From: Telopea speciosissima
Lineage: Eukaryota > Streptophyta > Magnoliopsida > Proteales > Proteaceae
Direction of reading: 5' to 3'
Assembly: GCF_018873765.1 (NCBI RefSeq)
Contig: NC_057918.1
Span: forward strand, 64,048,871-64,112,870
DNA: 64,000 nt
Shown: positions 9,765 to 42,100 of the stretch, in pieces
Position numbering within the stretch: position 1 is the stretch's first letter
Layout of the letters: each line of letters opens with the position of its first letter
Program-made: the position numbers and the translations under genes
The notes under the pieces: model-generated
Told to the model about the DNA's origin: nothing
Database searches by the model: none
Seen by the model: the letters and a program-made list of their open reading frames with translations, nothing else

Positions 9765-9893
9765 TGTTAAAAGAAAGAGTAAGACTGAAATGCTTGGATT
9801 GTTAAAGTGACCAGCCAAGCCTTCTATTTATTACAAAGTAAAAACAGAAAATTACAAGTATGCCCATGTGGCATATAAGTTCACAATCCAACT
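9765..9893 (-). repeat. 3' LTR of Copia-1
   Basis: About 129 bp; aligned with the right repeat over its whole length except for a tandem stretch of about 30 bp present only in the right copy. Confidence 0.85.
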
Positions 9894-12800: not shown

Positions 12801-14302
12801 GAGCTGATGAGCCTGAGAAGTTAATGCAGCAGGAGAAGGAAAACCATCTTCAAGCAAATAGAGACCACTATGCACCTTACCACATCCAATCGTCGTCCCT
12901 GTCACTTGATCCTGAAAGACACAATGGGATGGGAAGAAGGTTACTTGGCAATTTAAAATTTCGAGTAAGACTACTAATAGAAAGAAAATTATTAGTGAAA
13001 TTATGTATATGCAAAATAGACGATAGAGTAAGAGATGGAGAACAGCAAATAGAACCCTTTCCAGATATAGAAGAAAGAGAACCATTAGCTATTCAGACTT
13101 TGTCTTTTCCTGAGGAGGGGGAATACTGGTGAAAGAGACTGGAGGACCCAGTCATATGATTAGTGGCACTGGAGCCAATGATCCAGAGGCTGGAGACTAC
13201 CGATGCATAATGACCACTAAAGGAAATACCTGAACGAGCAAAGTGGGAACCTGAAGGTGCAGAGGCAGACGCAGAGGACGATACAGTGGTAGGAGGAGAA
13301 GCCTTCAACATGCGACGGAAAGCCTGAAGTTCATCCAGAGAAAGACCAGTGTCGGTAGTAGTGGAAGTGGAAACTGTCTCAATGTGGTTTGCTTGGTTAG
13401 TGGATCAACCACGACCACGACCACGACCACGAGTACAATTGGTCTCAAAATCAGCAGGTTTGCCATGAAGCCTCCAACAATTGGCCTTAGTATGCCATGG
13501 CTTGCTGCAATATTTGCACTTGACAACCTCCTTGGAGCTGTCACCAGTGCATGGGAGCACATCAATGGCAGAAATATGACTAGAGACAGTCTGTAGGGCT
13601 GATCTGTCTGTAGTGGGAGAATGAAGCATGGCTGAACGGCAGCTGTTCTCAGTATGGACCAAAGCATAAGACTGCTCTAGATTAGGGAACAGATCTCTAC
13701 TAAGAAGTAAGAACTTGGACGCGAATCTGATAGTACTCAATGTTCAGACCAGCCAAAAAATCATAGACTCTAATCTTGTCTTCATGTTTGCGGTATGCAG
13801 AAATATCAGTAGCACTGGTGGGCTGATAGTCAGCATAAATCCCAAATGATCAAGCTCTTGCCATAAACTGCGAAGCTCGGCATAGTACTGAGAGACAGAC
13901 ATCTCCATTTGTTTGGTGTCATGAACTTTCTTACGTAGCTCATACATCTGGGTGTCATTCCAGACCTGAGTATAAGTACCCTTCATAGCTGTTCAAATCT
14001 GTGTAGCAGTGTCCAAAAGCCTATAACCTTTGGCAATATTAGGTTGCATGGAGTTAAGCAAGGAGGACATCACCAGAGAATCATGAGAGATCCAAAGTTC
14101 CAGAGAGGGACCTGTATCAGAGGGCATCGCATTAGCACCAGTAAGATGCCCTTTAAGGCCACGACCAGAAATGGTCAAATAGGAGGATCGAGACCATATC
14201 AAGTAGTTGGTCCCATCTAATTTGATGGAGGAGGCAATAAAAGGGAGATACTCTTGATGACCCTGTCCATCAGATCTGGAGGATGCAGTAGTAACACCTG
14301 AC

Positions 14303-14743
14303 CATAGTTGTCACGGCGATCCAAGTCGGTGGAAGGGTGTCACGTCGATATATCGACATGTCGCCCGCCATGGCAACGCCATGGCGAGCATGTCGACCAT
14401 GTTTAATTTTTTATTTTCTGTATTTTTAATGTCATTTAGTATGCTATAATATATGTCCTATAACATCAAAAATCAACATGAAAGTGTACTACACTACTAC
14501 TAGTATACTATGCCACTATGGTTTAATTCATGAAAGTGTAACTAATATCCATTAGTGTATATGAAAGTATGAAAAATTGAAAATATAGATTAACCTGTCA
14601 AAATATCGACCGATATGCCAACATATCGTGGTATGGCGTCCATGGCGTCGCCATGGAAGCCATATCGAACGATATATTTACATCCACCATGGCGTAGCTC
14701 GATATGCCACCTCTCCCAGCGCCAGGACGCCATGACAACTATG
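14303..14743. mobile_element. MITE, CATAGTTGTCA family, inside Copia-1
   Basis: Ends CATAGTTGTCACGGCG and, inverted, CGCCATGACAACTATG. Flanked by 8-bp duplications CACCTGAC (14295-14302) and CACCTGAA (14744-14751). Subterminal segments hold paired palindromes around GCCATGG and TCGATAT motifs. No coding capacity. The 8-bp duplication points to the hAT superfamily. It inserted into the untranslated leader of Copia-1, so it is younger than that element. Confidence 0.85.
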
Positions 14744-15550
14744 CACCTGAAATAATGAACCAAGGACCAAATAGGAGAGAAAATCGACCAAATAGAGGTG
14801 ATTACAGAAATCACCAAATATAGCTGTCAGAATAGACTAAAATCTGGCTTGAGTTCTCTTCTTGGAATGGTTGAGATGTACCCCCAAAATAAGCAACTTC
14901 TGATGAGCCAGACAGAAAAACCCATTAATCTAAAAAATTAGGTCAAAAAAAGGAGATTTCAGAGAACTTTCAAACCAGATATCAGAACTGCCTGAAAGGT
15001 GGATCAAGTTATGCTCTGGGGTAGTCAAGTAGTTCCTCCAAAAATCAGCCCAGTCTGAAGAGAGATGACTGAGATCGATCCTGCTGGGTTTTGGAAGAAA
15101 ACCCTAAGTGTGAAATCGCAGGAAGGGCGAAAAAAGAAGGGTTCTGATCTTCAAACTGTAACAGATGCTCTCCAATAACTGCAGTACTTGATCTACAATA
15201 AGGGGAGATTCGATTCTCCAATATAAGAGAAGAAATCGATCTCCAAAGAAGAGGAAGAACCAAGTGCAAAAGCGGGGCAGCAGCTGTTGGTCTTTAAATT
15301 ACCAAATCATTCTTGAAACAAGGTAAGAAGGAGGGCAGCAACTAGATCCATAATATATCACCTCATTAGTGCTGCCCTTCTAGATGAGGAAGAGCCACCG
15401 AGAGAGGGAAGAAGGGCTGAAGGGAAGGTGGAGGTGGTGGTAGGTGGTGGTGGGCTGTTTTGGGTCAATATAGAGAAAGCTTGGGAGAAAGTGAAGGAAG
15501 GGAAAATCTAGTGCTGGAAACTTAGGTCAGAACTCTTAGCTCTGATACCA

Positions 15551-15708
15551 TGTTAAAAGAAAGAGTAAGATTGAAATGCTTGGATGATTAAGTGACCAGC
15601 CAAGCCTTCTATTTATAACAAAGTAAAAACAGAAAATTACAAGTATGCCCTTGTGGCATATAAGTATTACAAGTAAGCCCCTGTGGCATATAAGTTCACA
15701 ATTCAACA
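15551..15708 (-). repeat. 5' LTR of Copia-1
   Basis: About 158 bp, starting TGTTAAAAGAAAGAGTAAGA on the plus strand and ending AATTCAACA. It contains a short internal tandem duplication of the TACAAGTAWGCCC segment that the left copy lacks. Confidence 0.85.
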
Positions 15709-15713
15709 AATGG

Positions 15714-18550
15714 AATGTAATAGTTGGTGTCTGCTGACATTCTGTACCAATCTCTATTTTCTCCTAAATTAGAAATTTAGAATTATGATTTTCTTGTGGC
15801 TGTTGAATGTTCAATGTCAATATTGCTTTCAACCAATTTCAGCTCCATTGATCAGGAAAAAAAGAAACCTTAACCTGATCCATTTTATTACTTTATTAAT
15901 GGAAGGACTTGCTCAGGTAGCTTATTTTGAATCAATGCCTTCGTCAACTTTTTGTAGTGCATAGCATTTTTGGAATCTATTATTCTTCTTCCCAACTGAA
16001 ATTCTCAGCACCAAAAAAGTTGGTTTATTATAATATCTTAATATGTTTACACAAAAATTCAACATCTTGATTGTTCGTGGGCTATGAAAAATAGAGTTTT
16101 TTCAAGTAATTTACTCCTGTAGTGAAAAGTTTGTTAAAGAGATCCAACACAGCCATGGAAATGTTGTCCAAATACTTCTGCATTATCTGATTCTTCCTGG
16201 CATGAGTTCCTGTATCTTTATTTGTACTTGAGTACCATGAAGGCATTAAATGTTCTGTTTCTTTGGTGATTTTTTCTTCTTGGATGAGCTTACAATTTCT
16301 TATTGAGTTCCCTTCGATGGCATATGATTGAGTATGCTGCATTTGCTCTAAGTTGCATGTGTGTGTGTGTATGCACGGGCGCTTAAGCCAGAATAGGTAA
16401 ATATGAATGATTGAAATCAACAGGTGTAATAGATGAGTGAGGGAAGTGATCGATGGGATTAAGAGAAAAAATATATACTTTTTAAAATCTTTCTAGTCTC
16501 TTTCTAGAAAATGAGATCGATGTGTGAAAGGAGGAGAGAGAAATCTGTCGCTTGTCCAAAAGATAGGAAAGAAGGGACAGAAAATCAACAGGAGGGAGAG
16601 GGAGAGAGATATACCAAAAACCAAAAATCCTATTCAGAAGGGACTTTAGACAGCAAACCAACTTTTCTAATATGCCAAGGACTCTACTTTGCTAATAACA
16701 AAAGAACTCAACTTTGAAAACTCCATCCATTAACGATTAATATAATATGTTAAACCTTGAAAACTCCTAATCGATCGCTAAATGAGATCCCCACGACGTG
16801 CCTTAAAACTCTAATTTGAAAATTACACATATGCCCCCAACTTTAGTTAAAGGACTGTTCTGCCTCTGGTATACAAGATCTGAACCTATACTAATCAAAA
16901 TTAATCCCAACCACATGATCTGGATCGTGGATTGCTTCTGGATTGATTTGTCTGTGTGTTGCTTTAAGATTTGGATGTCAAGCGTGTGGCTTGTGTACTG
17001 CATGTGCCTATTCATAAGCCTTTGAGACATTCCAATTTCTTAAGACAAGTCAAGCTGTCCGTATATTGTTTCTAAATGAATGATCCAAGGGAAATTTTGT
17101 ACTTCAAATGTTATGAGTTCAATATATGGAGTTAGAAGAAAAGAGCTCTTAAATTGTTCATTGTAACATGTGAATCTAGAAAATGAAGCACCCTAATCAA
17201 TATCCAGATGGACCAGATAAGGGATACTCGGGATTTTTTTGATTGGTTTTCACAAGTTAAAAATAAATAAATAAATGAAGAGAATTAGAAAAGAATGTCA
17301 GAACTCTCTTTTTCTCTCTCAGCATTGGGGGCTTGTGTGAAGGTGTTCAGGTCAAGCTAGGTTACTGTCTGGTTCCCCAGCTGTGCATTTTGACTGATAG
17401 TCTGCCCAGGGATTTAAATAATTTGCATATGACATAGAGAACACATTGTATTCTCCATTTTTCACATAATGTCATGTTTCATTCTTTCATCAAGGGTTTG
17501 AGGAAAGAAATGTTCAGATGTTGCAGACTAAAGTTTTCAATAATATGGGAATCCTTCAAGTTCATATTTTCTTTAGTTGTTCTTGCATTAGCTCTTCATT
17601 TTTAGCTTTTCGTCATTTCCTCAATGATGTTGGATGTATTTAGCTCATGGGCTACAATATTTAAGTGCTCTCCTGGTTTCCAGTACTTCCATGATTCAAA
17701 CAATTATAGATTGCAGAATTAAGCATCATTGAGTTAGTTTGATTGCTTCTTACTTTAGTGCTTCATTATGCATTAATATGATGGTATGCATTGTCCTCTC
17801 GCAGGTCATGACTTAGCTTGCATCAACTGTTTCTTCTACAAGGTGCCTGGACCAGATCTTTAGTTTGCTTAAATCATTTTTTTCATGTGTTTTTTAACCC
17901 CCAGTTATATCATATTCAAAGTGTATGTTTGGTTTTTTCTTTGGGGGGGGGGGGGGGGGTGGAAAGAAGCATGGTTTTATCAGAGTAGTGGATTGGCAGA
18001 ATCTCCCGGATTGGATCGGTATTGATCCCGCATTGGTGGGTTGGTCTGGATGAAGGGTAAAATGGTACAGAAATCAGATTTTTTAATGACAACCAGGGCG
18101 ATCGGTATCGGCTGAGGCCGATCCCTTGTCCAACACTGATACCGATTCCTAAAACCCTGGGGGGAGGGGTGTTGGTTTGAATGAACTTGTACTCAAAATG
18201 TTGGATTAGAGTAACAATCATTTATCTTTCAACAACTTTTTTTTGTTTATATATTTATTATCAGACCCCTGGGATAGTGATAACCAATGTATGCCTCATT
18301 GATTCGGAACAGAAAAGGTTCTTAATACTTAACAGTTCCCAGAATGAAATATTCTGTGACCTCTTATATCAATCTATTATAGATAGTTTAGGTCTATAAG
18401 CCCAGCCTGACCCTTTAAAGGGAAAGAGAGCTTAAGAGATCTCCATATTCCATTGCATTGTTCTCGAATGGTGGAGATTGGAGATGCTTTTTTACAGGGT
18501 ACAGTAATCTAATATATGATTATTTTTCGTTTCTAACCTATCAATTTTTG
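15714..18550. other. Intergenic DNA with a degenerate GATCGGTATCGG-type repeat
   Basis: No gene recognised. A G-run of about 16 lies at 17943. Around 17985-18165 is a degenerate palindromic segment rich in GATCGGTATCGG motifs, a repeat type that recurs near 33560, 35540, 57230 and 61450. Short open frames have no known relatives. Confidence 0.4.
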
Positions 18551-20520: not shown

Positions 20521-22534
20521 GTTAATTTTTTAGGTTAGATGCCAGAAACATGCAATTTCTTTTACTTGATGGCCAATTCAGTTTTGTAACAGGGAGGATT
20601 GTAGGTGTTCGCATTTTAAATTTTGGAAGAAGGAAATAATTGAAGATTCTGGTGTCTAGGATGTGCTTTTTTCCAAGAGATTCACTTATATAAATTCCTC
20701 TATTATTCAAATAAGGATTATTGGGTTACTTAATAAGCAGAGGTTTCATGGTGAAAGAAGTTTGGTGTACCAACAAGGCAATTCCAAGCTTTCTTCCCGT
20801 TCCAACTCAAGCAGCATGGCCATGGCCTCTTATCTCACTTCTTTCGAAGATTACTGAATTGCCCGTAGGGATTTCCTTTTCTGTAAAGAACGATCTTTAT
20901 ATCACTTCTCTGGCCAAAAAGGTGGCTTAGTATGCCTTAAAGGAAAGGTAAAATTTTGTTTACCATAGAAACAATGTAGGTATTTCTTCCTTTACTTAAT
21001 ATAGTTTTTCTTTTCATCTTAACATCTAGTGTATGTCACAAACATTTGCTGGGTGCATTTTCATTTTCAAGCCCTAGCTCTGCCTAAGCCTCAACTTATT
21101 TAAGTGGTTTGGGCTTCTGTTCTAAAAAAATTTTATTTTCATCGTGTGTGAAGGAAAACTCGATCTTTTTTTTTTAGGGCCAACATCAAATCCAGAAAGA
21201 TTTAATGAAGCTGATAGAATGGTCTAAGAAAAACTTTCTCGCTCTTTAATCTTTATGGCTGTATCTTAGTGTCACCAAAAAACAAAATGGTGAAAGAACC
21301 TTCTTTTGAATTCCGCTTGTCTTATTCTCTAAGGTTATTTTGTATAAGGATAAAAAGAGTTCTCAAAATAATTCGAAAATTGGTTTATTATTAGGTCACT
21401 ATAGGATTTACTCTCATTGAAAAAAATAGTATGTTATACTGAAAAAGATAGTCGAAAATATGTATTGGATTCATGTTCGTATCGGTTTAGGGGAAGTTGT
21501 ATTCGAAAAATCGGTTTCCATCTGCTATCCAAATCAATTCAAAAGCTAATCTGATTGAATACAGATATTTCAATTTCAGATAGGATATTATCTGATTCAT
21601 TTAAATCCAATTATAAAAAATATGGTTAAGTAATAGTTTTATAATACTAAAATACCCTTGTCAAGTTCACAGTATATTTACAAGATTCATGAGGACATCT
21701 ATGTAATTTTAGATATGACGCTTCAACATCAACCCTAGGGGCTAGTGGATTCAGCCCTTCACCTTCTCGTTTTCTCGAATTTTGATCTCCTCCAATTCTC
21801 CATTACTAAATGCAAACAGTGAGGCTGCCAACTCCGCTCTCTCTACACTCATGACTCCACTCTACAACTTCGATTACAGATGTAAATGGATAGTCAAAAA
21901 TCCATATCTGATTCATGTTCCTATCAATTAGGAAAATATATGTTCAAAATATTATTTAAATTAATTTGCAATAACTATCGTAATTTATTCGAAAACTAAT
22001 CAAATACTATTAACCGAACCTGGGCCTAGACCCAATTCGGGTTTGGCACCCACCCATGGGGCAGCCGAGTGGACCTGGGTAGGTTGGCCCCTTAAGGAGT
22101 TGGCCTTCCTGCTTTGTGTCTCATCTCTCTTCTATTTCCTATTTAGAGTGGGACACTGTGAGGGGTGATGGGTGGGGGATTGATTATATATAGACATAAT
22201 CAAGTCACCCCTATAAACCTAATGCCATTGTTGAGATATTAGTCTCTCTTTCTCTTAATCTTGTTCACCAAGTTACTAGTGTGTTGTATGTGGGATTCTA
22301 TCCGTTCCCAAGAATTTGTAGTGTGGAGTTTTCCGTAGAAAAGTCTTTCAAGATATCTAGAGATTGATCGTCAACGTTCGTGAAGCTTGTAACCATTTCT
22401 GTTCAAGATCCTCTTCTGCTGCATTCATCTCCGTCTATGCGGTGTTGATTTGTTTATAGATACAAATATGATTAATGTAATATTTGATTCAAATTGGATC
22501 CATTTACATCCTTAATTACAATAAGAGATGGAAG
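20521..22534. other. Intergenic DNA with degenerate hAT MITE traces
   Basis: No gene recognised. At 21440-21650 and between 21876 and 22510 lie degenerate pieces of the GGATGTAAATGGAT-type MITE family; the second pair (GATGTAAATGGAT and, inverted, ATCCATTTACATC) is separated by about 600 bp, so another insertion may sit between. I could not find a clean target duplication. Confidence 0.35.
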
Positions 22535-22852
22535 CACCAGATGTGGACGTTCCTTAATGAGTTTGTATGTCAATTATCATATTATTTTTAATGTGAATGA
22601 TATTTAACTTGCACCAAATTACAAGGATTCCCTCGCACTTGGTGCTTAGGTTTTATTAATTGACGGCACAAGATCCAAAAAAAACCTTGTGTCCCCAAAT
22701 TCAACGTTTTTTTCAAACTAAAACAAACTACGTAACACGCTAATCTGCTGGATCTTCATGCAGTGTGAGAAGTAGAAATCTCATGCGGAAGAGTGAGGAC
22801 TAAGGATGGGATATTAATTTAACATATACATTAAAAATGTAATATATTCTAA

Positions 22853-23026
22853 GGGGAAGTAGTTTTCTGTCCGGGAGTGTGGCCTACGCCAGCACTCCCA
22901 TATATGTGTCTATATCTTTCCTCCTCAAAACAAGGGGGCAGAGGTGTCTTTTCATATGGGGAGGAGAGAGATAGACTCATGGGATTGCTGGCGTAGGCCA
23001 CACTTCCGGACAGAGTTCTTTTTCCC
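22853..23026. mobile_element. MITE, GGGGAA...TTCCC family
   Basis: Near-complete hairpin with arms of about 40 bp (left GTGTGGCCTACGCCAGCA, right its inverse). 8-bp flanks TATTCTAA and TATTCCAA differ at one base. A related older copy, present in both duplication copies, lies at about 23460-23625 and 25970-26150. Confidence 0.75.
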
Positions 23027-23170
23027 TATTCCAAGTGAAGAAACAAAACAAAACAAAACAAAAACCTAAAAAACAAAAAAAATCAAAAAGACAGTATTCA
23101 ATTGTCTTTCTTTTGTTTGTTTTAACGAAGAGAGTAAGAGTAATCCTTTTGAATACCAACATAAATTATT

Positions 23171-23376
23171 AGGGAAAAGGAACTCTAACCAGATCTGTGT
23201 GTGGGGGCATGTACTTGCACGGCTGTGCTCAGACACAGCCTAGTGTGAAAAGACCACCATATATACCCCTAGAAAGATGGAAAGGTCAATGGGTGCGGTG
23301 GTCTTTTTGCTTTGGGCTGTGTCTCGGTACAGGTACACGCCCACACACAGTAGTTCTGGTTAACGTTCTTTCTCCC
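23171..23376. mobile_element. MITE with perfect 8-bp duplication, absent from copy B
   Basis: Ends GGGAAAAGGAACTCTAACCAG and inverted CTGGTTAACGTTCTTTCTCCC. Target duplication AAATTATT at 23163-23170 and 23377-23384. Copy B at about 25875 shows the uninterrupted site (ATAAATTGTTATTCACTC). Confidence 0.85.
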
Positions 23377-23637
23377 AAATTATTGTCATTCACCCAATAT
23401 GTAAAGGTATGTTTTAGTGGCCCCTCTTGGAGAAAATTCTCCAAACAATCTCAATAAACAGAGGAGATTTTTTGTCCACGAGCATGGCCTATGTCAGCGT
23501 CCCAAAGTCAATCTATCTATCTCTTCCCCCAGTAGGAGAAAAAGATGTCATTTCTTAGGAAGGGTGAGAGATAGAGATACAGGTATGCCTATGTAGGCCA
23601 CACTCTTAGATAGAAAACATTTTTCCTATTTATCTTA

Positions 23638-23820
23638 TGGGAGAAAGAATGCCACCTGGTCGTGCTAGACACGCTGCCCCTGCGCCCTGACATAGGGGTG
23701 TGCAAAATGATCACCACACCTTGGTCAATTCCGGGGTTCTTGGGGGGCGACGATCATTTCACACGCCCTTGCGTCAAGGTGCAGGGACAGCGTTCGTGAT
23801 CGGGTGGTGTTCTTTTTCCC
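23638..23820. mobile_element. MITE of the same GGGA...TCCC family, absent from copy B
   Basis: Ends GGGAGAAAGAATGCCACC and inverted GGTGGTGTTCTTTTTCCC. 8-bp flanks TTATCTTA (23630-23637) and TTATCTTG (23821-23828). Copy B near 26158 has the empty site ATTATCATCTAATATTTTT. Confidence 0.8.
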
Positions 23821-24541
23821 TTATCTTGTAATATTTTTGGGAAAAAGAATGATACCAGATTGTATGGATCCTATGCCCAGACACTAGAGCATGCAAAATT
23901 ACCATCCTGCCCATGCTCTCAGCCCCCACAACCAAACAATGATGCCTTGCCCAATATTTTTTTTTAAGAAGGGGACATTGATGCCAAGTGTTTTGACCAT
24001 ATTATCAATAGGAAATTGCTAACCTCACGGATCTTACAGCCTAATCACATCTCAGAAAAAAAATTGGATTTTATTTTTTTAATCCCCTCCCCAACCCTAT
24101 ATTTTACAAGATTCCACGTGAGTATGCTACATGACATATTTGGATATGACCATAACCAAAAGTGACACCAAGGTTGTTTCTTTAAAGTTGTTGAGGTAAT
24201 TTTGTCTTATGAAAATAAATAGTCATTCATTGGGATTTTTATATTGACACCTCCTAAGTTGTTTCCTTTTGTTTTATTCTTAAAAGTTATTTAATGTATG
24301 GATAAAAAATAGGTTTTCAAAAAGTTGAAAGTCATTTAATGCAATATTTAATGTAGGGGTAAAGAACGTCACTCGGTCGTGCCAGACATGTCATCCCTGT
24401 GCCCTGACACAGGGGCACGCGAAGTTGGAGGAGCTTGATGAGTTGTTATATGCCCTCCTTCGTGGTATTCTTCATGAGATGCGCGCACCAGATGTGGACA
24501 TTCCTGTGTGAGTTTACACGCCAATTATCATATTATTATTA

Positions 24542-24667
24542 GGGGAGGAGATCCCTGTCTCTAGGTGTGTGGCACCTGCACCAGCATGGGGCCAATGACT
24601 GAACACACAACATTTTTTATTTTACGCTGGCACAGGAATCACGTGATCAGGTAACGTTCTTTTTCCC
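24542..24667. mobile_element. MITE, GGGGAGG...TTTCCC, absent from copy A
   Basis: 126 bp with perfect 8-bp target duplication TATTATTA (24534-24541 and 24668-24675). Copy A at about 22580 has the empty site ATCATATTATTTTTAATG. Confidence 0.8.
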
Positions 24668-24820
24668 TATTATTAATGTTATTGATATCTAAGCTGCACC
24701 AAATGACAAGGATTCCCTCGCACTTACTGCTTAGGTTTTATTAATTGATGTCACAAGATCCAAAAGCCTTCTGTCCCCAAATTCAATATTTTCGCAAATA
24801 AAAAATAAACAGTGAAGAAA

Positions 24821-24977
24821 GGGGGAAGTTTTCATATACGACCGTGTAAGCATGTACGTTGTGTCCCTTCTCACAAAGAGTTGGAAAAGTCATAAACCCC
24901 CACCCATTAATTAATGCCTTGAAACTCCCAACCTCTCATATACACGGTTTACACAGTTGTGTATGAAAACTTTCCCC
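24821..24977. mobile_element. MITE with GGGGGAAGTTTTCATA ends
   Basis: Inverted termini of about 30 bp: GGGGGAAGTTTTCATATACG on the left, and TGTATGAAAACTTTCCCC on the right. AGAAA directly flanks both ends. Not present at the matching place in copy A. Confidence 0.7.
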
Positions 24978-25005
24978 AGAAAAAAATAAACAAACTAAAA
25001 CAAGT

Positions 25006-25157
25006 CATAGTTGTCAAGGCGTCGCCTAGGCAACGGACGTCCAGGTGCCTTGGTCGCCTAGGTGGGCGCCTTGGACGCCTTGGACGCCTAGTTGGTGTCA
25101 CCTTTAATTTTGACTCTCTCCAGCGTCTTGAGTCGCCTAGACGCCGTGACAACTATG
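25006..25157. mobile_element. MITE, CATAGTTGTCA family
   Basis: Ends CATAGTTGTCAAGGCGTCGC and inverted GACGCCGTGACAACTATG. The interior has repeated GCCTAGGCG and GGCGCCTTGGACG motifs. Copy A reads straight through this site (CTAAAACAAACTACGTAAC). A clean 8-bp duplication is not evident. Confidence 0.75.
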
Positions 25158-25246
25158 AGCCAAACTACGTAACATGCTACTCTGCTGGATCTTCATGCAT
25201 TGTGAGAAGTACAAAAAAAAGGCAGCATTCAATTGTCTTTCTTTTG

Positions 25247-25781
25247 CTCATAAATAGATGGGTGAATGGGTGAATGAGAGCCGTCTATACCTCTCTGACA
25301 GAGATGAACTTTCACAAGATCTTGACACCCTACATCCCCAGGACCTATCCAATAACCTTCTTTTTCGAACAAGACACAAAGACAAAATGTCTCCTAATCT
25401 CAGATGGCAGCTTTAATCCAGCTTCCAAACAAGGAGGTTAGGGCTCAGTGATAATTTTTAATCACCACTTATTTGCATCTACAATGAACTTTGGAACTAC
25501 ATGAACGGCACAGGAAACAGAGCTCAGAGGACTCAAAGAAGAAGTTGAAAGGGCACTTCTTTTGAACTGCCGAGAACTAATCATCTGGACTGACTCAGAG
25601 GAACTAAAGCAGTGGTTAACTGATGATGGTGAACCGATGTGGCCATGGGACCTGTTTCATTTACTCTATGATCTTAAATTTTCTTTTAGATTACTCAATT
25701 CAGTTTCTGTATTAAAACAGCCTAAGATGACTCTGTATCCATCATGTTTTAATCAATTATTTTATCTTTCATAAAAAAAAA
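25247..25781 (+). mobile_element. 5'-truncated LINE, RNase H tail only
   Basis: Encodes only the last LINE domain. Acidic RNase H motifs are seen at LISDGSFNPA (25396-25425), QETELRGLKEE (about 25510-25545) and LIIWTDSEELKQW (25577-25615). It ends in an A-rich tail at 25773-25781. The flanks are a perfect 13-bp target duplication TGTCTTTCTTTTG (25234-25246 and 25782-25794). Copy A at about 23102 shows the unoccupied site. Retroposition by truncated reverse transcription is the natural reading. The N-terminal part of the domain is shifted relative to the C-terminal part by at least one indel. Confidence 0.85.
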
Positions 25782-26695
25782 TGTCTTTCTTTTGTTTGTT
25801 TTAATGAAGGGAGTGTTTATCCAAAAAAAAAAAAAAAAACCGAAGAAGTAAGAGTAATCCTTTAGAATACCAATATAAATTGTTATTCACTCAATATGTA
25901 AAGATATGTTTTAGTTTTAGTGGCCTCGTTTGGAGAAGATTCTCCAAACAATCCTAACATACAGAGAGGGTTTTTTTTTTTTTTTTTTTTTTTGTTGTCT
26001 TAGAGCATGGCCTACGTCAGCATCTCCTGAATCAATCTATCTCCTCCCCTAATAGCGGGCAGATATGTCATTTCTTAGGCAGGATGAGAGATACATGCAG
26101 ATACAAGAAAGCTGGTGTAGGCCGCACTCTTGGACATAAAACATTTTCCCTAATTATCATCTAATATTTTTAGGAAAAAGAACACTACCTAATTGCATGG
26201 ATCCTATGACTAGACATAGGAGTGCACAAAATTATCTCTCGGCCCCATAAAATCAAAAACCTCATCCATTTTAATACTCTCATGCATGCTCTGGCCCCTA
26301 CAACCAGACAACCGATCTCTTGCCCAATATTTTTCTTTAGGAGAGGGCATTAATGCCAAGTGTTTTGACCATATTATCAATAGAAAATTGCTAACCTCAC
26401 GGACCTCATAGCCTAATCACATCTCAGGGACAAAAAAAATACCATATTTTTTTATTCCCCTCCCCCACCCTATATTTTACAGGATTCCACATGACTATGT
26501 TACATCACATATTTGGATATGACCATAACCATAAGTGACATCAAGGTTGTTTCTTTAAAGTTGTAGATCTACTTTTGTCTTATGAAAATAAATAGTCATT
26601 AATCATTGGGATTTTTATATTAACATCTCCTAAGGTGTAAATAGATATGTAATCTTACTTTTTTTTTTTATTCTTAAAAGTTATTTAATGAATGG

Positions 26696-29600
26696 GTCAC
26701 ATCCAGGTTTCTTGGATTGTGTACGAGAGTGTTGGTCGACGCCGGTGTTTGGGTCACCTCTCCAGACTCTCTACCTTCGGTTGAAGGCCCTCTATACGTG
26801 CTTACGAGGCTGGAATAAAACGGTGTTTGGCAACATACACCAGAATGTCAGGAGGGCGGAAGACAGAGTATGCAAGGCAGAAATTGAGTTGGAACAGTGT
26901 TTCTCGGAGGCGGCAAAAGGGGAGTTGGAGGACGCCACCATAGCTCTCAATGAGGTGTTATTACAAGATGACATTTTTTTGAGGCAAAAATCAAGGGTAC
27001 GTTGGCTCAAGGAGGAGACACCAAGTTCTTTCATGCCATGGTCAGGATACGAAGGCTACGGCAGGGGGTGGACAAAATAAAGGATGCGCATGATGAATAG
27101 CTCACCGAGCCGACGGACATAGCAGGTGAGGCAGTTAGATTTTATACTGACATGTTTTCGTCTCAGGCTTGTATCCAGGACGAGGATCTCCTACAGTACG
27201 TTCCACAGTTGGTGACCGAGGAGGAGAATGAGATGTTGTTAGCCACACCCATGTTAGAGGAAGTCAAGGCGGTGGTGTTTGACTTGTCAGCGGACAGTGC
27301 CCCTGGTCCAGACGGGTTTACAGGCTATTTTTTCACGGCGTACTGGGGCATTATAGGGAAGGATGTTTGGGAGACGGTCAAGGAATTCTTTTTGGGGGGG
27401 GTTGTTTGCCACGAAGCTACATGTCAGCAAATTTGGCCTTAATTCCTAAAAAGGAGTGCCTAGAAGCAATGACAGATTTTTGCCCAAGAAGCTTGTGCAA
27501 CTTCTCTTACAAAATAGTTGCAAAGGTTATTTCCACGAGACTCGCAGCTGTACTCCCCAACATAATATCAGAGGAGCAAGGAGCATTCACTCAAGGCAGG
27601 GACATTCATGATAGCATAGCCTTGGTGCAGGAGGTAACTCATGAAATCAATAGGAAGGCGCGAGGTGGAAATGTGATTCTTAAGTTAGATATGACAAAAG
27701 CTTACGACTGACTGGAATGGGAATTTTTATATAAGGTTTTAGGAAAGTTTGGGTTTGCTACTGAGTGGATTTAGATGATTAAAAAGGTAGTAGAGAATTG
27801 TTGGTTTTCTGTGGTGATGGGAGGGGAGCCTACTGGTTTTTTTAAGTCTACGAGAGGGGTGAGTCAGGGAGACCCACTATCGCCAGCTCTGTTCATTATT
27901 GCGGAGGAGGTACTGAGTAGGGGATTGAGAGCTCTATTTATGGAGGGTAGGGCAGAGTACTACAGCCTCCCGAGGGGATGTCCGGGAATTTCTCACAGTC
28001 TTTTTGCTGATGACACGATAATTTTTTCAAGCGGCTTGAAATCATCATTGAAGCAGATCTGTGGCCTAATTAATAGTTATGAAGGTTTCTCGGGCCAACT
28101 GGTAAATAAATCAAAGAGTTACTTTGTGATTAGCGAGAAGGCTTCAAACCGCAAAAGCCTCAAGGTGGAAGGGATTACAGGGTTTCCCAGGAAGAGGCTG
28201 CCAATTACGTACCTAGGGGAGCCCCTGTTCTCAGGAAGACTGCGGATATGTTTCTTTAATGAATTTTTGGCTAAGATGCGTAACAGGGTTGCGGGCTGGC
28301 AAAGGAGAACATTGTTTTCAGGTGGACGAGTAGTGTTGCTCAAACATGTGCTGGCAGCCATGTCGATTCATGTAGTGTCCTCGTTGGACATTCCCACCAC
28401 TATTCAAAGAAAATTCAATGGAATCTACTCGGACTTTCTGTGGGGCCAATCAGAATGGGGTAAAAGGCATCATTGGGTTTCATGGAGCAAGGTGTGTGCA
28501 CCAGTTGCTGAAGGGGGTTTGGGAATTCGAAATTTAGAAGATATGACAAGGGCGTTGCGTCTGAAGGGTCTGTGGAGAGCAATGACTGGGAAATCATTAT
28601 GGTGCAAATTTTTATAAGCTAAATATTTCAAAAATGAACACGCAGCTCTGGCAGGGGAAAGAGTGAGCGGATCAGCGGTCTAGAGGAGGGCATTGCGGTT
28701 GAAGGAGCGGTTGTTATCAAAATCGTAATGGGTCATTGGAAAAGGGGAGGTGCTATTTTTGTTGGACAACTGGTCAGGAAAGGGTGCTCTAATGGATTTT
28801 GTTGATGGGGCGCTAAACCTGGATCTGGAAACCCATGTAAAAGATGTCCTTAGCCGGGATGGAGCATGGAACATGGAGATTTTGAATATGATAGACTCAG
28901 ATAGAGTGCGAAAAGGCTTGTTGGAGGGTCATTTTTTTCTGACTGATCGGGAGGATCGGTTGGTGAGGATACCGACGAAAGACGGGAAGCTCACCACGAA
29001 GTCACTGTGGAACGAGTTGAGAAGGGGTGCAGCTGAAAAGACGTTTGCAAAGTGGTGTTGGAACCAGGCCCTCCCCACAAAGGAGGGTTTCTTCTCTTGG
29101 CAGGTTTTGAGTGGAGGGATCCCCACAGATGAATATATTAAGAAGATGGGGGTACTGCTTGCTTCTAAATGTTACTGTTGTGGCCAGCCCAGGTGTGAAT
29201 CAGCAACTCATGTCTTAATAGAAGGGGGAACGGCGAAGAAGGTTTGGAGGTTCTACTCACAACTCTGTGATGTGGAACTGGTGCCGTTGCAAGACGCCCG
29301 CAGTCGCATAATGTTCTGGCATAGTCAGGCATGTGAGGGAAAGTTGTATGGGGGTGATTATTGGTCTTCTTCCATCACTAATTATTTGGGAATTATGGAA
29401 AGAGCGGAATAATCGAAGGCATGGTGAGAAAGGCCGATCAGCCAGATACATTGTGGAGATCATTAGGAGGTGGGTTGCGGAGTTGCCTATATGTCTCTCA
29501 TAGGGCAGCAAGCCGTCTTTCAGGGAAGCTCTTGCGCTGCAATTCTTTGGTATTTCGCACCGCCCAGGTTCTCTTAAGGCACCCATTCCTGTGTACTGGC

Positions 29601-30292
29601 AGAATCCATCCTTGTCAGTGAAGCTAAATGTAGATGGGGAGTGTAAAGGCAATCCGGGGATAGGAGGGGTGGAGGTGTAATTAGAAACAGCGATGGTCAA
29701 GTGGTGGCGGGCTTCGCTAAATTCTACGGTGTTTGCACTAACTCCTTAGCTGAACTGAGAGCCTTGAGAGACGGGCTTAGGCTTTGTGAGAGCCTAGGAT
29801 TCAAGGAGTTTCATGTTAATTCGGACTCGATGACAACAGTGAAGTGCATAGAGAAGGGAGCACACGGGAATTGGAAGGGTTGGTATTGGTTTCAGGAGGT
29901 GCTAGATTTGGTAAGATCTCTCAACCCAAAGATAGAATTCACCTACAGAGAAGGGAACAGGGCAGCAGACTATCTAGCGAATTTAGCTTGTGAATAGAAA
30001 AAGGATTCCGCTTTTTTGGGGGAATCACATTTGCCTCAAGAGCTCCGGCAAATTGCTCATGAGGATGCCATAGGTCTTCCAGTAATAAGGTTTTAAGTTT
30101 TTTAGTCTTGTAAGGGTGGGTGTGAGCTTTAATAAGAGTGCTTGAGAGTGAATGAAGGAGCCTCAGGGCAGTTTGGGTATGGGGTAAGGCGGGAATGTCC
30201 CCCCCTTTTGTACTCCTTTTCTATTTGATTATTGGAATAAAAGCATAGGGGCTGTCCAGGGTCCCAGAGAATGTTCGGGGTAAAAAAAAAAA
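26696..30292 (+). mobile_element. 5'-truncated L1-type LINE (RT, zf-RVT, RNase H)
   Basis: A 3.6-kb plus-strand LINE lacking ORF1 and the endonuclease. A linker region encodes CLRGWNKTVFGNI. Reverse transcriptase runs about 27280-28100 with SAPGPDGF, LALIPKK, LKLDMTKAYD, GVSQGDPLSP and an intact FADD at 28003-28014. The post-RT thumb (WSKVCAPVAEGGLGIRNL) is followed by a zinc-knuckle domain near 29165-29250 (CYCCGQPRCESATH). RNase H spans about 29620-29997 (LNVDGECKGNPG, AELRALRDG, NSDSM, REGNRAADYLA). Stops interrupt RT just after KAYD (27709) and at 27774, and there are several frameshifts, so it is dead. It ends in an A-tail at 30282-30292 and is flanked by ATGAATGG (26688-26695 and 30293-30300). 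Copy A keeps the empty site near 24295. Confidence 0.92.
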
Positions 30293-30477
30293 ATGAATGG
30301 TTAAAAAATGAGTTTTCAACTTCATTTAAAGCAATAATTTATCCTTATTAAAAAAATTGTATTAAATATTTTTGGGAATAAGACAAGAGACAATTAAATG
30401 AAGTTGTCTAACTCTAAATTCACCACTAGAGTTAGACGCTCCCTACATGTAATTGGGGATACATTACAATCTATAGG

Positions 30478-30838
30478 TAGGGATGTAAACGGATCGGATA
30501 TGGATATTCCCTGCCCGGATACAGATAACCCTAAATGGTTTCGGATGCAAATTGAATTTGGATTTTCGACTATCCGTTTATATATCTAACTTGTGTAACC
30601 CAGACCTTCCTCCCCCAACGGATACGATTCACTCTCAATCCATGTTTTAGTCTCATAATTCTCATTTCCTCATTCTTTAGAACCTGTTGAATCTTCAAAA
30701 ACCTTCTATGTCATTAGTTGGATATCTATTCGGATCAGATAATTTTTTCCCGGACTATTCGAATAAAAAATCGGATACCCTTAAACAAAAACGGATGGGA
30801 ATTGAATTTGAACTTTCGGGTACCCGTTTACATCCCTA
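30478..30838. mobile_element. hAT MITE, TAGGGATGTAAACGG family, copy 1
   Basis: Ends TAGGGATGTAAACGGATCGG and inverted CCGTTTACATCCCTA. Perfect 8-bp target duplication TCTATAGG (30470-30477 and 30839-30846). No coding capacity. Confidence 0.9.
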
Positions 30839-31079
30839 TCTATAGGCACCTCAAGGCTAACTTAGAATTCGAAGCTTATCCAATTTTCAAGTATGTGTTA
30901 TGAAAATTGGTGCCCTGATGAGGACACCTATTGGTAGATTTTTTTTCTTTTCTTTAATGAAGGCACAACCTTTTTTATTTAATACTTGAGAAGCAAAATT
31001 ATGGCACAACCCTTTTGTCTATCAGTATACTTCTACAAAGGTATTGAATTAAAAAGAAAGAAAAATACAAGATTCACAT

Positions 31080-31789
31080 TGTTGCGTGTGAAAACCTCCG
31101 TCGCCCGGTTCACCCACTGATGAGCCTGCAAAAAATCGAGTGAGCGCAAGAGAGCCGATGTGGTTCAGGCCTAGGAATCTCCGACGCTCAAGTCAGGTCT
31201 CCAGTGCAATAGCGTAACAGCTAGTAAAAGTGAGATGTGGAATTGTGCTCCATACCTGGGTATTTATAGAGTGTGGATGAGGTGAGGCGGTTGGGAGAGT
31301 CCTAGTATGGTAGGAGTTCTTCTTTTGGAAGGCACTCTCGCGTAGAGCGGAGTGGAGAGTCATTTTCAGGGTCGGACTCTTGTTAAGCTAAGAGTCCATA
31401 CTTGGCGTGACTTCGTAACGCGTTGGGATTGTGGCTCGATCCTTATCCCGTGATTCTTGGGATGTACTGACGTGACTCCGCGATTCTCGGCAAGCCGTTA
31501 CGAGGACTTTGGTAGAGGGCTCGGTCTAGGAGGTCGGCCAGTGAGGTCGGCATGGGAGGTCGACCTCGGCAGTCACCTCGGCCTAGGCCGTCCTGTGTAT
31601 GCTCGGCCGAAGTTTTAAGGCTGACTTGGATGATGTGTCGCGGGCTCGGCCGAGTGCTCGGCCTAGCCATGCGACCTGACGGAGATCGGGTCGGCCCGTT
31701 TTTCGATTCAGCTCGGTTATGTTCTTGGGGTGACCTCGACTCGGCCACGTGGCAGCTTCTGATTAGTGAGGTGATTTTGTGCTTTAGCA
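31080..31789. repeat. Solo LTR of a retrotransposon
   Basis: 710 bp beginning TGTTGCGTGTGAAAACC and ending GTGCTTTAGCA, with a perfect 5-bp target duplication CACAT on both sides (31075-31079 and 31790-31794). GC content rises in the right half, which is full of CTCGGCC motifs. No internal coding region is attached, so it is a solo LTR left by recombination. Superfamily not certain. Confidence 0.75.
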
Positions 31790-35096: not shown

Positions 35097-35449
35097 GGGT
35101 AAATTACACCTCACTCCCTGATTTTCAAACGAAACTCAGATTACCTCCTGGTTTTTGAAAAAACTCAAATCACCCTCTGGTTAGTCCCTATTGTTATTTT
35201 TATGTTTTTAAGTGATGATGTCAGCCAGTTAAATAAATTTAAATCCCTAAACTACTCTTGACCAATGTTGAAGATGAAAGAAGGGTAGTATTGTAAATTT
35301 AATTCTAATGTTTTAGTACAGAGGTAAAATAGTCCTTTCACACCAATAACTAACACAGTTACTGTAGAGGGGGTGATTTGAGTTTTTTCAAAAAACAGGG
35401 GGTGATCTAAGTTTCGGTTGAAAACCAGGGGGTGACATGTAATTTACCC
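35097..35449. mobile_element. Mutator-type MITE, copy 2
   Basis: Ends GGGTAAATTACACCTCACTC and inverted GGGGTGACATGTAATTTACCC. Perfect 9-bp target duplication TAATAAAAA (35088-35096 and 35450-35458). It lies in the upstream region of the DUF3339 gene. Same family as 1792-2176. Confidence 0.9.
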
Positions 35450-37699: not shown

Positions 37700-39010
37700 C
37701 GGCGGACACGGTGCTACTCACAGCGGAGAAAAAGGAAAAAAAAGAGAAGAAGAAAAAATCCTCCAAAAGTCAAATAACCATGTAATACTTCACCAATCCG
37801 AATAATTCTCTATGACACCCCGTGCACATAACAACCCCCTAGGCGTCGTGGACCCGTGGGTATGTTATGAAAAAAAAAACTGATAATTTACGTAACATTT
37901 AAACCATTAAACATGGAGATGCAGACTGCATAGACCACTGTTTTGTACTTCCTTATTAATTATTATTTGAACAAGCGAACACTGCTTAGTTGCATGTGGT
38001 GCACGGTCTCTGTGCTTAGACACATGACCATGCAAAATGACCATCATACCCCTATTTCCAAATTAGGGGTAGTTCAACCTACAAAAAAAAAAAAAAACAA
38101 AAACTTGGGGGAGGAGGATGTCTAACAAGACAATGCCCATAAGGGGTCATTACATTCACCCCCAACATAGTCCCCCTGACAAGGGGCACAATGACCAACC
38201 TACCCCTTCTTGGGTAGGATCCACCCTCCTTATTAGAGAGAGTGGGGAACTGGACTGGGCAAGAAACTGGAGGAGATAATTTTCCCAAACAATGATCGAC
38301 ATATAGTCATGCTAGACTCAAAATGAAGTCAAACCAAAGTCTATTAATTAATTCTATGGTTGGTGAGGAAATGCTGATGCCAATTCACCTAAGGCCCGGA
38401 TTGTTAATTAACCAAATTCAAAGTTCAAAACCGAATATTTGTTATGTGTTCCCCTTACTATCATTAAAAAAATTAATCTAATTATAATATGTTTTTTTTT
38501 TTGGGCATATGTCAGTTATTAGAGTAATAAGTGCACTTGTTTATTGAAATGTCTCTTTTAGATCCTCTTATTACGAAAGCACTTAGAAGTTAGAACAATT
38601 CACGTCTCACATGATTTTCCCTTTTTCACACAATGCACCATTTTAGGAAACTGACTGCTAACAGTGAGTGGGACCCACAATGTATTTAGTAACCCAGTCA
38701 TGTTTGTATACGTGGCTAAACAAGTGGACCCCATATTAGTATTATTATTGGGAATTTTTGACTGCTTCTTCCTTAGTATCTAACAGAAACATGGGGATTG
38801 CACCATGCATGGATGTCACTGACATTGCCAATCCATATCATCATCATCATCATCATCATCATTTTTTATCACCATGCTCATCATTATCATGTTATCATCT
38901 TCATTAGCCTTAATATGAACACAAACAACCAGATTAACACACTCCCCTTAATCCTAATCTCGTTGTTCCCTAAGGCCTCTAAACTCAAGAAGAGTTGGTG
39001 GGAGCAGAGA
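37700..39010. other. Upstream region of the ferroportin gene
   Basis: No gene. At 37970-38290 lie fragments of the AATGACCATCATACCCC-type repeat seen around 23.7 kb. Leader features near the gene include a CAT/ATC microsatellite at 38836-38863 and a CATGCATG palindrome just before it. Confidence 0.4.
38803..38812. promoter_or_regulatory. CCATGCATGG palindrome (RY/CATGC element)
   Basis: A perfect 10-bp palindrome containing CATGCATG about 200 bp upstream of the ferroportin start codon. CATGC is the core known to be bound by IDEF1/ABI3-type B3 factors in iron-deficiency promoters. One such site may be chance; a regulatory role is inferred only. Confidence 0.3.
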
Positions 39011-39133
39011 ATGAAAGTTGAAATAGAAGAAGGCATGAACCAATCTCTTCTTGCTGAATCTTCACAGCAAAACAACTTCCCTTCTCTTATCAAACGCTTG
39101 TATGTTGGCCACTTTCTGGCTAGATGGGGAGCA

Positions 39134-39165
<32 letters not shown>

Positions 39166-42100
39166 TAGGCTTTGATTACTTAAATTTTCTTCCTGACTTA
39201 CTGTTTTGGACTCAACTGCGTTTTCTTCTGAAGTTGGATTGCTTATTAACTATGACAGTTTGCAAAACGTTTTGATGAGCTCTGCATGTAAACTTCTCTT
39301 TTTGAAATGTTGGGTTTGAGAGTTTATGGACTGTTTGTTATTATGACTTTTCATCTTCTATTTGGAAACAATTAGATTTCGATCTCTCTCGGTTACCCTT
39401 TCTTTGGTTTGAACTCTAGTGGGTTTGGCATTAACTGATGGATTGACATTTTTTTTTCTTCAAAACTGCCCTGTGGTATCCCCAAAACTAAAACTTGATT
39501 TTTGGGTAAAAACCCACCATAAAAATTTTCAGATAGCCCAGTTGAATCAAACAGTTTGAATGATTTAGATCCTCCATTCAACTGGGTTAAAATTTAATCC
39601 AGAGGGTCCCTTATTTGTGAGTTTGTATGACCCAAACAGTTTGAGTGATGGTGGTTTTTTTTCTCTTTGTGGATTCCATCTTTATTCTGTTGTTTGACAT
39701 TCAGGTTCTTTCTTGCAGAATGTGGGAATTCTCTGTTGGTTTATACATGATCAACCTTTGGCCAGACTCTCTGCTCTTTGCTGCTATTTATGGTGTTGTG
39801 GAAGCTACATCTACTGCAATATTTGGTCCTGTTGTTGGGCAGTGGGTGGATAGGTTGACATATGTTCAGGTGGGCTAGTCTTGGTTTTTCCTACTGTTTA
39901 CTCCGGACATTCACAATAAAATCAAACATTTGCCAAAGAAATTTTACGTCTTAACCTTGTTATCTGGCAGGTTCTCAGACTCTGGTTGTTGACCCAAAAT
40001 CTTTCCTTTATTGTTGCTGGAGGCACAGTCATAGTATTACTAGTCTACTCAAGCTTGAAGTTGACAAATTTTCCGGCATTCCTATCACTTGTCGTTTTAA
40101 CTAATATTTCTGGAGCAGTTGGTGTGCTTTCAACTCTAGCTGGCACCATTTTGGTAGAAAGAGAATGGTAACCCTGATGCAGAATTTGAATTGTTCAATA
40201 ATAAATAGAATTTCTTCAACTTTATGGAGTTATGATTTGTCTTCTTAAAAACAAGAAAAATACCCGGCTAGAGCAGATTACTACTGTGTTGGTTTTTCTA
40301 ATAATCTGCTGCTGTTGTTTAAGTTCTGGGCTTTGTGTTGTCAAAGCTATATCAATGTGTAGTTAGTAATGTTTCTTCTGTCATGTGGTCATGAATTTAG
40401 TATTTGGTTGTATGTTAACTTTTTATTCTAGGTAGCTAAAAGCATTTTGTAATATCCTTTCGTGGCATTGCAAACTTTAAGCTCTAATGATATTAATTTG
40501 AAGAACCAGTTTTCAATATATTCCTCTCATCCTCTGTTTTCCAAGCTTAACTCCATATTTGTTTTTTTCTTTCTCAAAATCCCCATGAGAACCACAAAAG
40601 CTGAACTGAAAACTATTTTTGAAATATTTGAAAATTATCATGCAGAATCAATTTGTTCCACTGGTTGAAGTTTAAAACTGCAATCCTACTTCAGTTCTAC
40701 AAAAGCTCAATCCATTTAGTTGAATACGACCACAATATAATACTATGCATCTCTGTGCATGCATTCACAAAGGTTCAATTTTTTTTCTCAAAGACCTAGA
40801 CATTGTGTTTCTATAATGACATTTAAAATAGTTATGTCATTATCTTAAAAAATAACCTAAGAATTACTCATATGAACAAAATTTATTCTTGCAATTCACC
40901 TCTGTGCTGTCATTAATGGATCAAGTTCCGATTTATCTAATTGGGAATCTCTCAGTGTTTACGTTATATTGAAATGACAGGGTGGTGGTGATTTCAAATG
41001 GAAAATCTCCAGAAGTATTGACAAAGATGAATTCAGTCATCAGAAGGATCGATCTGAGTTGCAAGCTATTTGCCCCTGTGTTTAGTGGCTTAATTATTAG
41101 CTTCGTATCACTGAAAGCATCTGCAATGACTTTAGCACTGTGGAATTCTATATCTGTTTGGTTGCAGTATTGGCTTCTAAAGTCTGTTCTTAATGGAATT
41201 CCGGCTCTAGGTGAAAGCAATCAAAAAAGGATGGCGAGACTTGCCCCAAGTGATTCATTACAGAGTACATATATTTCAGAGGACACACAGAGTTTGCTTT
41301 CTTATGCGGAAAGTGATTTAGAAATGAGAGAGCAGAATTGGAAAAGTAAAATAATTCAACAGATTTCAAAGATCCCATACATAGACGCATGGAGTGTATA
41401 CTTACAGCAAGAAGTGGTGCTTCCCGGAGTTGCACTAGCTTTATTGTATTTTACTGTCTTAAGGTGAGATATGCTTGATATTGATGCTACATTAGAAAGA
41501 GAATAAGATATTTGGCCTTGTGTTCTAAGTCCAGGAATAAAACAAAGAAGGAAAAAAGCAATAAAGATGACTGATGATTTGTTCAAGTTACAGGGTTGAT
41601 TCCTGGCTTTGGATGTCTATGAGATGGCACAATCTAATTTCATGTCGGTCACATAAATTGTGTTATATGCTACATTATCCTTTCTATGTAGGAAGAAGTA
41701 CCATAGACTTCTTCTAGACATTTTGTTCCTTATTGTCTTTCTACTTTGAACTTCAAGATCATTGACATGTGCACTCATATCTTTGTTTTCTTCTTGCAGC
41801 TTCGGAACATTAATGACGGCTGCTCTGGAATGGAAAGGGATACCTGCTTATGTTATTGGTATAGCACGTGGAGTGAGTGCTATAGTTGGAATAGCTGCAA
41901 CAGTTTTGTACCCGCTTGTACAATCGCGTATTTCAACTCTTCGAACAGGATTATGGTCAATCTGGACTCAGGTACAAACATCATTTTACAAAACTTGGTG
42001 CAAAAGGTCCAAGTTGTTTTTGCACCAAGTTGAGCTATCATTTTCTCATCCCAAATATTTGTAATCAATATGATCACTTTTCCTTGGATTAATTAAATGC

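Follow-up and report, generated by a model that had tools for sequence, protein, structure and literature searches.

The 64-kb stretch of the Telopea speciosissima genome studied here (contig NC_057918.1, positions 64,048,871 to 64,112,870, hereafter the window), on which the whole analysis is based, holds two neighbouring copies of a ~1.2-kb unit, and the best reading of them, in which we have high confidence, is that this unit was duplicated in tandem and that each copy then received insertions independently. Copy A, with its insertions, occupies approximately 22523..24350 on the + strand, its ends being blurred by adjoining repeats (self-BLAST, global alignment, and recount of divergence), and copy B occupies 24474..30343 on the same strand, its right end being approximate (self-BLAST, global alignment, and joined flanks). 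Some ~120 bp separate them. For six of the private insertions, namely three miniature inverted-repeat transposable elements (the MITEs P1, P2, and P3), the element P6, and two long interspersed nuclear elements (LINEs), the twin copy has an empty or near-empty site.

The relation between the copies is clear from their alignment. Self-BLAST of 21501-31500 gave collinear blocks on one strand (22525-24301 against 24476-26695), the top one of which (23912-24301/26285-26695) shows 83.7% identity (E 6e-124). A global alignment with cheap long gaps reproduces the order of these blocks and stops at the large LINE; the small blocks it places in A 22833-23082 opposite B 25216-25781 are forced and do not reflect true homology. 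Beyond the large LINE, the last ~40 bp of the copies also match, at 32 of 39 aligned sites. Once the elements are removed, A and B reach a local score of 1041, whereas none of 200 shuffles of two-base blocks exceeded 34. The collinear alignment claimed in the initial annotation of this region is therefore borne out. Its sizes of about 1.24 and 1.27 kb are reproduced too (1247 bp for A minus P1, P2, and M0; 1271 bp for B minus P3, P5, P6, and both LINEs), but only when three elements it had not listed, M0, P5, and P6, are also subtracted. The insertions it did name are real, and to its incomplete list we add these three, together with P4 and M2. A further difference between the copies is a 35-bp insertion present in B only (25812-25846), about half of which consists of an A run; the insertion is flanked on either side by GAAG-like repeats and may be a very short retroposed tail.

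Coordinates of the private insertions other than the LINEs are given without a strand. In copy A, the MITE P1 (23172..23376, 205 bp) is flanked by the duplication AAATTATTA/AAATTATTG and P2 (23639..23820, 182 bp) by TTATCTTAT/TTATCTTGT, with one mismatch each. When the flanks are joined with a single copy of the duplication, the empty site of P2 in B is gap-free and that of P1 retains a 3-bp difference beside the site. A third element private to A, M0 (22854..23026), has a 9-bp duplication TATTCTAAG/TATTCCAAG, again with one mismatch. Copy B alone has the MITE P3 (24543..24667, 125 bp), whose duplication TATTATTAG/TATTATTAA, with one mismatch, was placed by hand and whose empty site in A is gap-free. 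It also contains two further elements, the inverted-repeat element P5 (~24825..24977, ends approximate), which lies in an A-rich stretch and is without DNA match to the other MITEs, and P6 (25004..25160), which has CATAGTTGTC... ends and whose joined flanks match A gap-free. Another member of the P6 family lies at 54304-54839, apparently split by a copy of the repeat 30477-30838.

Plant LINEs of the L1 type encode a reverse transcriptase with zf-RVT and RNase H-like parts, end in an A run, and are flanked by a target duplication. Two insertions on the + strand of copy B are compared with this pattern: a short LINE-like fragment of 535 bp (25247..25781), which ends in an A run, has the 13-bp repeat TGTCTTTCTTTTG on both sides, and gives a sub-threshold domain match only (RVT_3, E 0.27), and a large LINE (26696..30291) with an A run, the 9-bp repeat AATGAATGG on both sides, and broken reverse transcriptase, zf-RVT, and RNase H-like pieces (RVT_1 PF00078, PF13966, and RVT_3 PF13456). 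For both, the joined flanks with one copy of the duplication are gap-free in the twin. The five private insertions that had been named at the outset (P1, P2, P3, and the two LINEs) are thus real, each with an empty site in the other copy, four of the five gap-free. The accompanying statement that the other copy shows the target in each case holds for these five and fails for the unlisted M0; likewise, the gaps coincide with target duplications at P1, P2, P3, both LINEs, and P6 (there with a 3-bp repeat only), and do not at M0.

Two other MITEs are shared. M1, related to M0 by sequence comparison, lies on the + strand at 23458..23629 in A and at 25966..26153 in B, where a long run of T stands close to its left end; with this run shortened, the two copies are 80% identical, against 72% and 76% to M0, the best match being in the same orientation. 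This confirms the earlier suggestion of a MITE present at the same place in both copies, near 23460/25970. The second, M2 (+ strand, 23839..23952 in A and 26172..26325 in B), occupies the same position in both copies with the same 9-bp repeat, AATATTTTT, on both sides. Since M1 and M2 stand in both copies at the same place, both are most likely older than the duplication. Between the copies, at 24356..24421 (+ strand, right limit approximate), there is the left half of one more MITE, P4, 78% identical to P2 over 55 bp.

Mutator-like MITEs (MULE MITEs, from Mutator-like elements) are short, non-coding elements that have inverted GGG...CCC ends and duplicate 9 bp of their target. The elements P1, P2, and P3 have GGG...CCC at their ends, and 9-bp duplications adjoin the ends of M0, P1, P2, and P3 (one mismatch each) and of M2 (alike in both copies), so that by their duplications these MITEs fit the Mutator-like class. 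When the window was scanned for inverted GG...CC ends next to 9-bp duplications with at most one mismatch, six elements emerged, of which M0, P1, and P2 lie in this region, whereas ten control shuffles within 50-base blocks gave 0, 0, 0, 0, 0, 1, 0, 0, 1, and 0, or 2 altogether. The same scan with 8 bp gave 2 other matches (shuffles 0-2 each), and with 10 bp a single one, namely M2 of copy A displaced by one base, against none in any shuffle; M0, P1, P2, and P3 were among neither. We therefore rejected 8-bp, hAT-type duplications for these elements, none of which the 8-bp scan recovered, whereas the 9-bp scan found M0, P1, and P2. The end sequence GGGAAAAAGAAC, at up to two mismatches, occurs at both ends of P1 and P2 but at just one end in M0, P3, and M2; within the first 14 bases, the two ends differ from each other at 5 positions in M0, 4 in P1, and 3 in P2. 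Neither a transposase nor an autonomous partner for the GGG...CCC MITEs was seen in the window, and a literature search for the end sequence returned no transposon study by title.

This history most likely ran as follows. A stretch of ~1.2 kb with M1 and M2 already aboard was duplicated in tandem, presumably by unequal exchange or by an error of replication or repair. Copy A was later struck by at least two Mutator-like MITEs and by a third element of unclear history (M0), whereas copy B received a single Mutator-like MITE together with two LINE fragments and two elements belonging to other families. The 9-bp duplications suggest that a cut-and-paste transposase of the Mutator superfamily mobilised the GGG...CCC MITEs, and the A runs with duplications of varying length that target-primed reverse transcription placed the LINEs, while P4 may have been halved by a subsequent deletion or rearrangement where the copies meet.

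Other origins of the two copies have to be weighed. They could be remnants of a larger tandem gene duplication whose aligned part is mostly intron, an idea that is compatible with the tandem duplication, would name its original unit, and which we entertain tentatively, as a possibility that we do not favour. Copy B opens with an open stretch of 29 codons (24422-24508) with a donor-like GTGTGAGT at its end, as judged by eye, and copy A retains ten of those codons with 8/10 residues alike (tblastn E 0.009), but the 29 residues match no Pfam family (E up to 1) and no solved structure (E up to 10), no second exon was recognised, and copy A is without the upstream part and runs into stops. The unit may represent the border of a gene that has decayed. 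It is quite improbable that the copies are instead two members of a dispersed repeat, e.g., a decayed transposon, lying side by side without local duplication: although the region is rich in transposons and the comparison is confined to 64 kb, self-BLAST found no third copy in the window, both copies carry two MITEs at the same sites, and neither is bounded, by eye, by terminal repeats or target duplications. We also discarded the idea that they are the long terminal repeats of one retrotransposon, as only ~120 bp lie between them and inspection by eye showed no clear TG...CA ends. Finally, M1 and M2 might have landed twice at the same sites instead of being inherited by both copies. Their divergence, which exceeds that of the flanks, would suit this, but the identity of the sites, the same 9-bp repeat at both copies of M2, and the fact that the M1 copies are in the same orientation and nearer to each other than to the third family member, M0, make it extremely improbable.

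Some observations nevertheless weigh against tandem duplication followed by independent insertion. Copy B lacks the target of M0, whose empty site is not visible because the surrounding 306 bp (22779-23084) are without counterpart there, positions 25215 and 25216 adjoining in B according to self-BLAST. The 9-bp scan missed P3, the ends of which are too unlike each other to be picked up by it, so that this element was placed by hand. There is no convincing target duplication at P5 or P6, the latter being flanked by a repeat of 3 bp only (CAA), none was recognised at M1, and the repeat flanking M2, AATATTTTT, is of low complexity. M1 and M2 together differ between the copies at 53/275 sites (19.3%, Kimura two-parameter distance [K80] 0.226), whereas the flanks outside transposons differ at 85/807 aligned sites (10.5%, K80 0.114; Fisher p = 0.0003), and one common age of shared MITEs and flanks would not predict such unequal divergence. 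Faster decay of methylated DNA, which might account for it, is not demonstrated by the CpG and transition counts.

These counts omit gap columns, A 22711-22713, A 22779-23084, the 35-bp insertion of B (25812-25846), the A-rich stretch around P5, and the private elements, each with one copy of its duplication. Rougher counts with cruder ends (flanks 90/822, MITEs 52/285), used for the CpG counts and additional Fisher tests only, gave p = 0.002 for the contrast between MITEs and flanks, which weakened to p = 0.026 when the best-conserved long flank segment was omitted and to p = 0.09 when M2 was taken by itself. That CpG decay caused the extra divergence of the MITEs is unsupported: in the rougher counts, 5 of the 52 MITE differences are CpG transitions and the share of transitions does not differ (p = 0.49), and the low observed/expected CpG of the MITEs in copy A (M1 0.27, M2 0.0) is matched by the flank 23963-24300 (0.24). 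The flanks are themselves heterogeneous, with K80 ranging from 0.064 to 0.205 among segments.

What can be dated from the pair is accordingly less than the initial annotation had proposed in calling it a self-contained clock for transposon activity. One rate does not fit because the shared MITEs are about twice as divergent as the flanks. Plant substitution rates range from 3e-9 to 1.3e-8 per site and year, at which the divergence of the flanks corresponds to 19 to 4.4 million years, giving a span rather than a date. The window contains two copia-type retrotransposons, at 9765-15665 (K80 between end repeats 0.045, 115 sites) and 43612-49034 (K80 0.042, 250 sites), and, assuming equal rates, the duplication predates the insertion of either because their end repeats are less divergent than the flanks (K80 0.114). 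Mismatches between target duplications are unable to date the insertions: they number 4/36 in M0, P1, P2, and P3, 0/22 in the LINEs, and 0/18 in M2, which is expected to be the oldest, and these counts are biased, since the scan for M0, P1, and P2 tolerated up to one mismatch and the LINE repeats were sized by their matching stretch. The suggested comparison of the divergence of the copies with that within MITE families was run, and the families are the more distant (M0-M1 72%/76% identity; P2-P4 78% over 55 bp), but such distances mirror the age of the families and give no insertion dates. The order of the insertions relative to the duplication is sound and the dating is not, so that the clock is partly supported and, as a term, overstated.

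The concentration of MITEs raises the question of whether one Mutator-like MITE superfamily lands preferentially in this unit. Counting M0, P1, P2, P3, P4, M2, and perhaps M1, six or seven independent insertions fell in or at the unit, before and after its duplication. At up to one mismatch, GGGAAAAAGAAC occurs 7 times in the window, always within 23015-26183 and always in five elements: M0, P1 (twice), P2, P3, and M2 (both copies). Allowing two mismatches raises this to 24 matches (11.3 expected, at most 20 in a shuffle), and 15 of the 17 with two mismatches lie outside the region. Searches with nhmmer (E up to 0.01) using M0, M1, P1, P2, P3, and P4 as queries found nothing outside 22.8-26.2 kb within the 64 kb; with M2 they found one weak match elsewhere in the window (38000-38056), to which blastn adds a 21-bp match at 15872-15892. 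This clustering is no unbiased test of landing preference because the region was chosen for its MITEs. It may reflect such a preference, the nesting of MITEs near MITEs, or chance, and we think the first rather unlikely.

The surroundings are A+T-rich and contain pieces of copia-type retrotransposons (RVT_2 and other domains) and several inverted repeats. Among the latter, two elements on the same strand, at 1792-2176 and 35097-35449, have GGGTAAATTACA-like ends and exact 9-bp duplications and are 83% alike. A piece of a ferroportin-like gene lies at 40973-41467 on the + strand (PF06963, E 9.9e-40), and 38777-39175 weakly matches the beginning of that family (E 0.17).

Our analysis illustrates how, with no second genome at hand, one locus can show where several transposons end and which target duplications flank them, and can order them against a single duplication. 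It also carries a caution for clocks of this type, since the shared MITEs here diverged about twice as much as the adjoining DNA. The GGG...CCC elements resemble Mutator-like MITEs in being short and non-coding, with 9-bp target duplications and ends that are inverted to a varying degree, and differ in that no autonomous partner or transposase was seen in the window. The insertion 26696-30291 resembles plant L1-type LINEs in its reverse transcriptase, zf-RVT, and RNase H-like pieces, its A run, and its target duplication; it differs in being broken into several frames, and 25247-25781 is only 535 bp long. A literature search on duplicated segments with empty MITE sites found no study. Paralogous empty sites as such are already in print, and the present locus is a tidy but ordinary instance of them, with private insertions in both copies: a study of BRAMI-1 in Brassica (PMC3626606) describes related empty sites taken from paralogs without the insertion. 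There, as here, a copy of the locus free of the element shows the target and thereby proves the ends of the element and its target duplication. In that study, the BRAMI-1 paralogs lie in separate syntenic blocks and a single MITE family is compared (PMC3626606), whereas in Telopea the copies are adjacent and each has insertions that are absent from the other.

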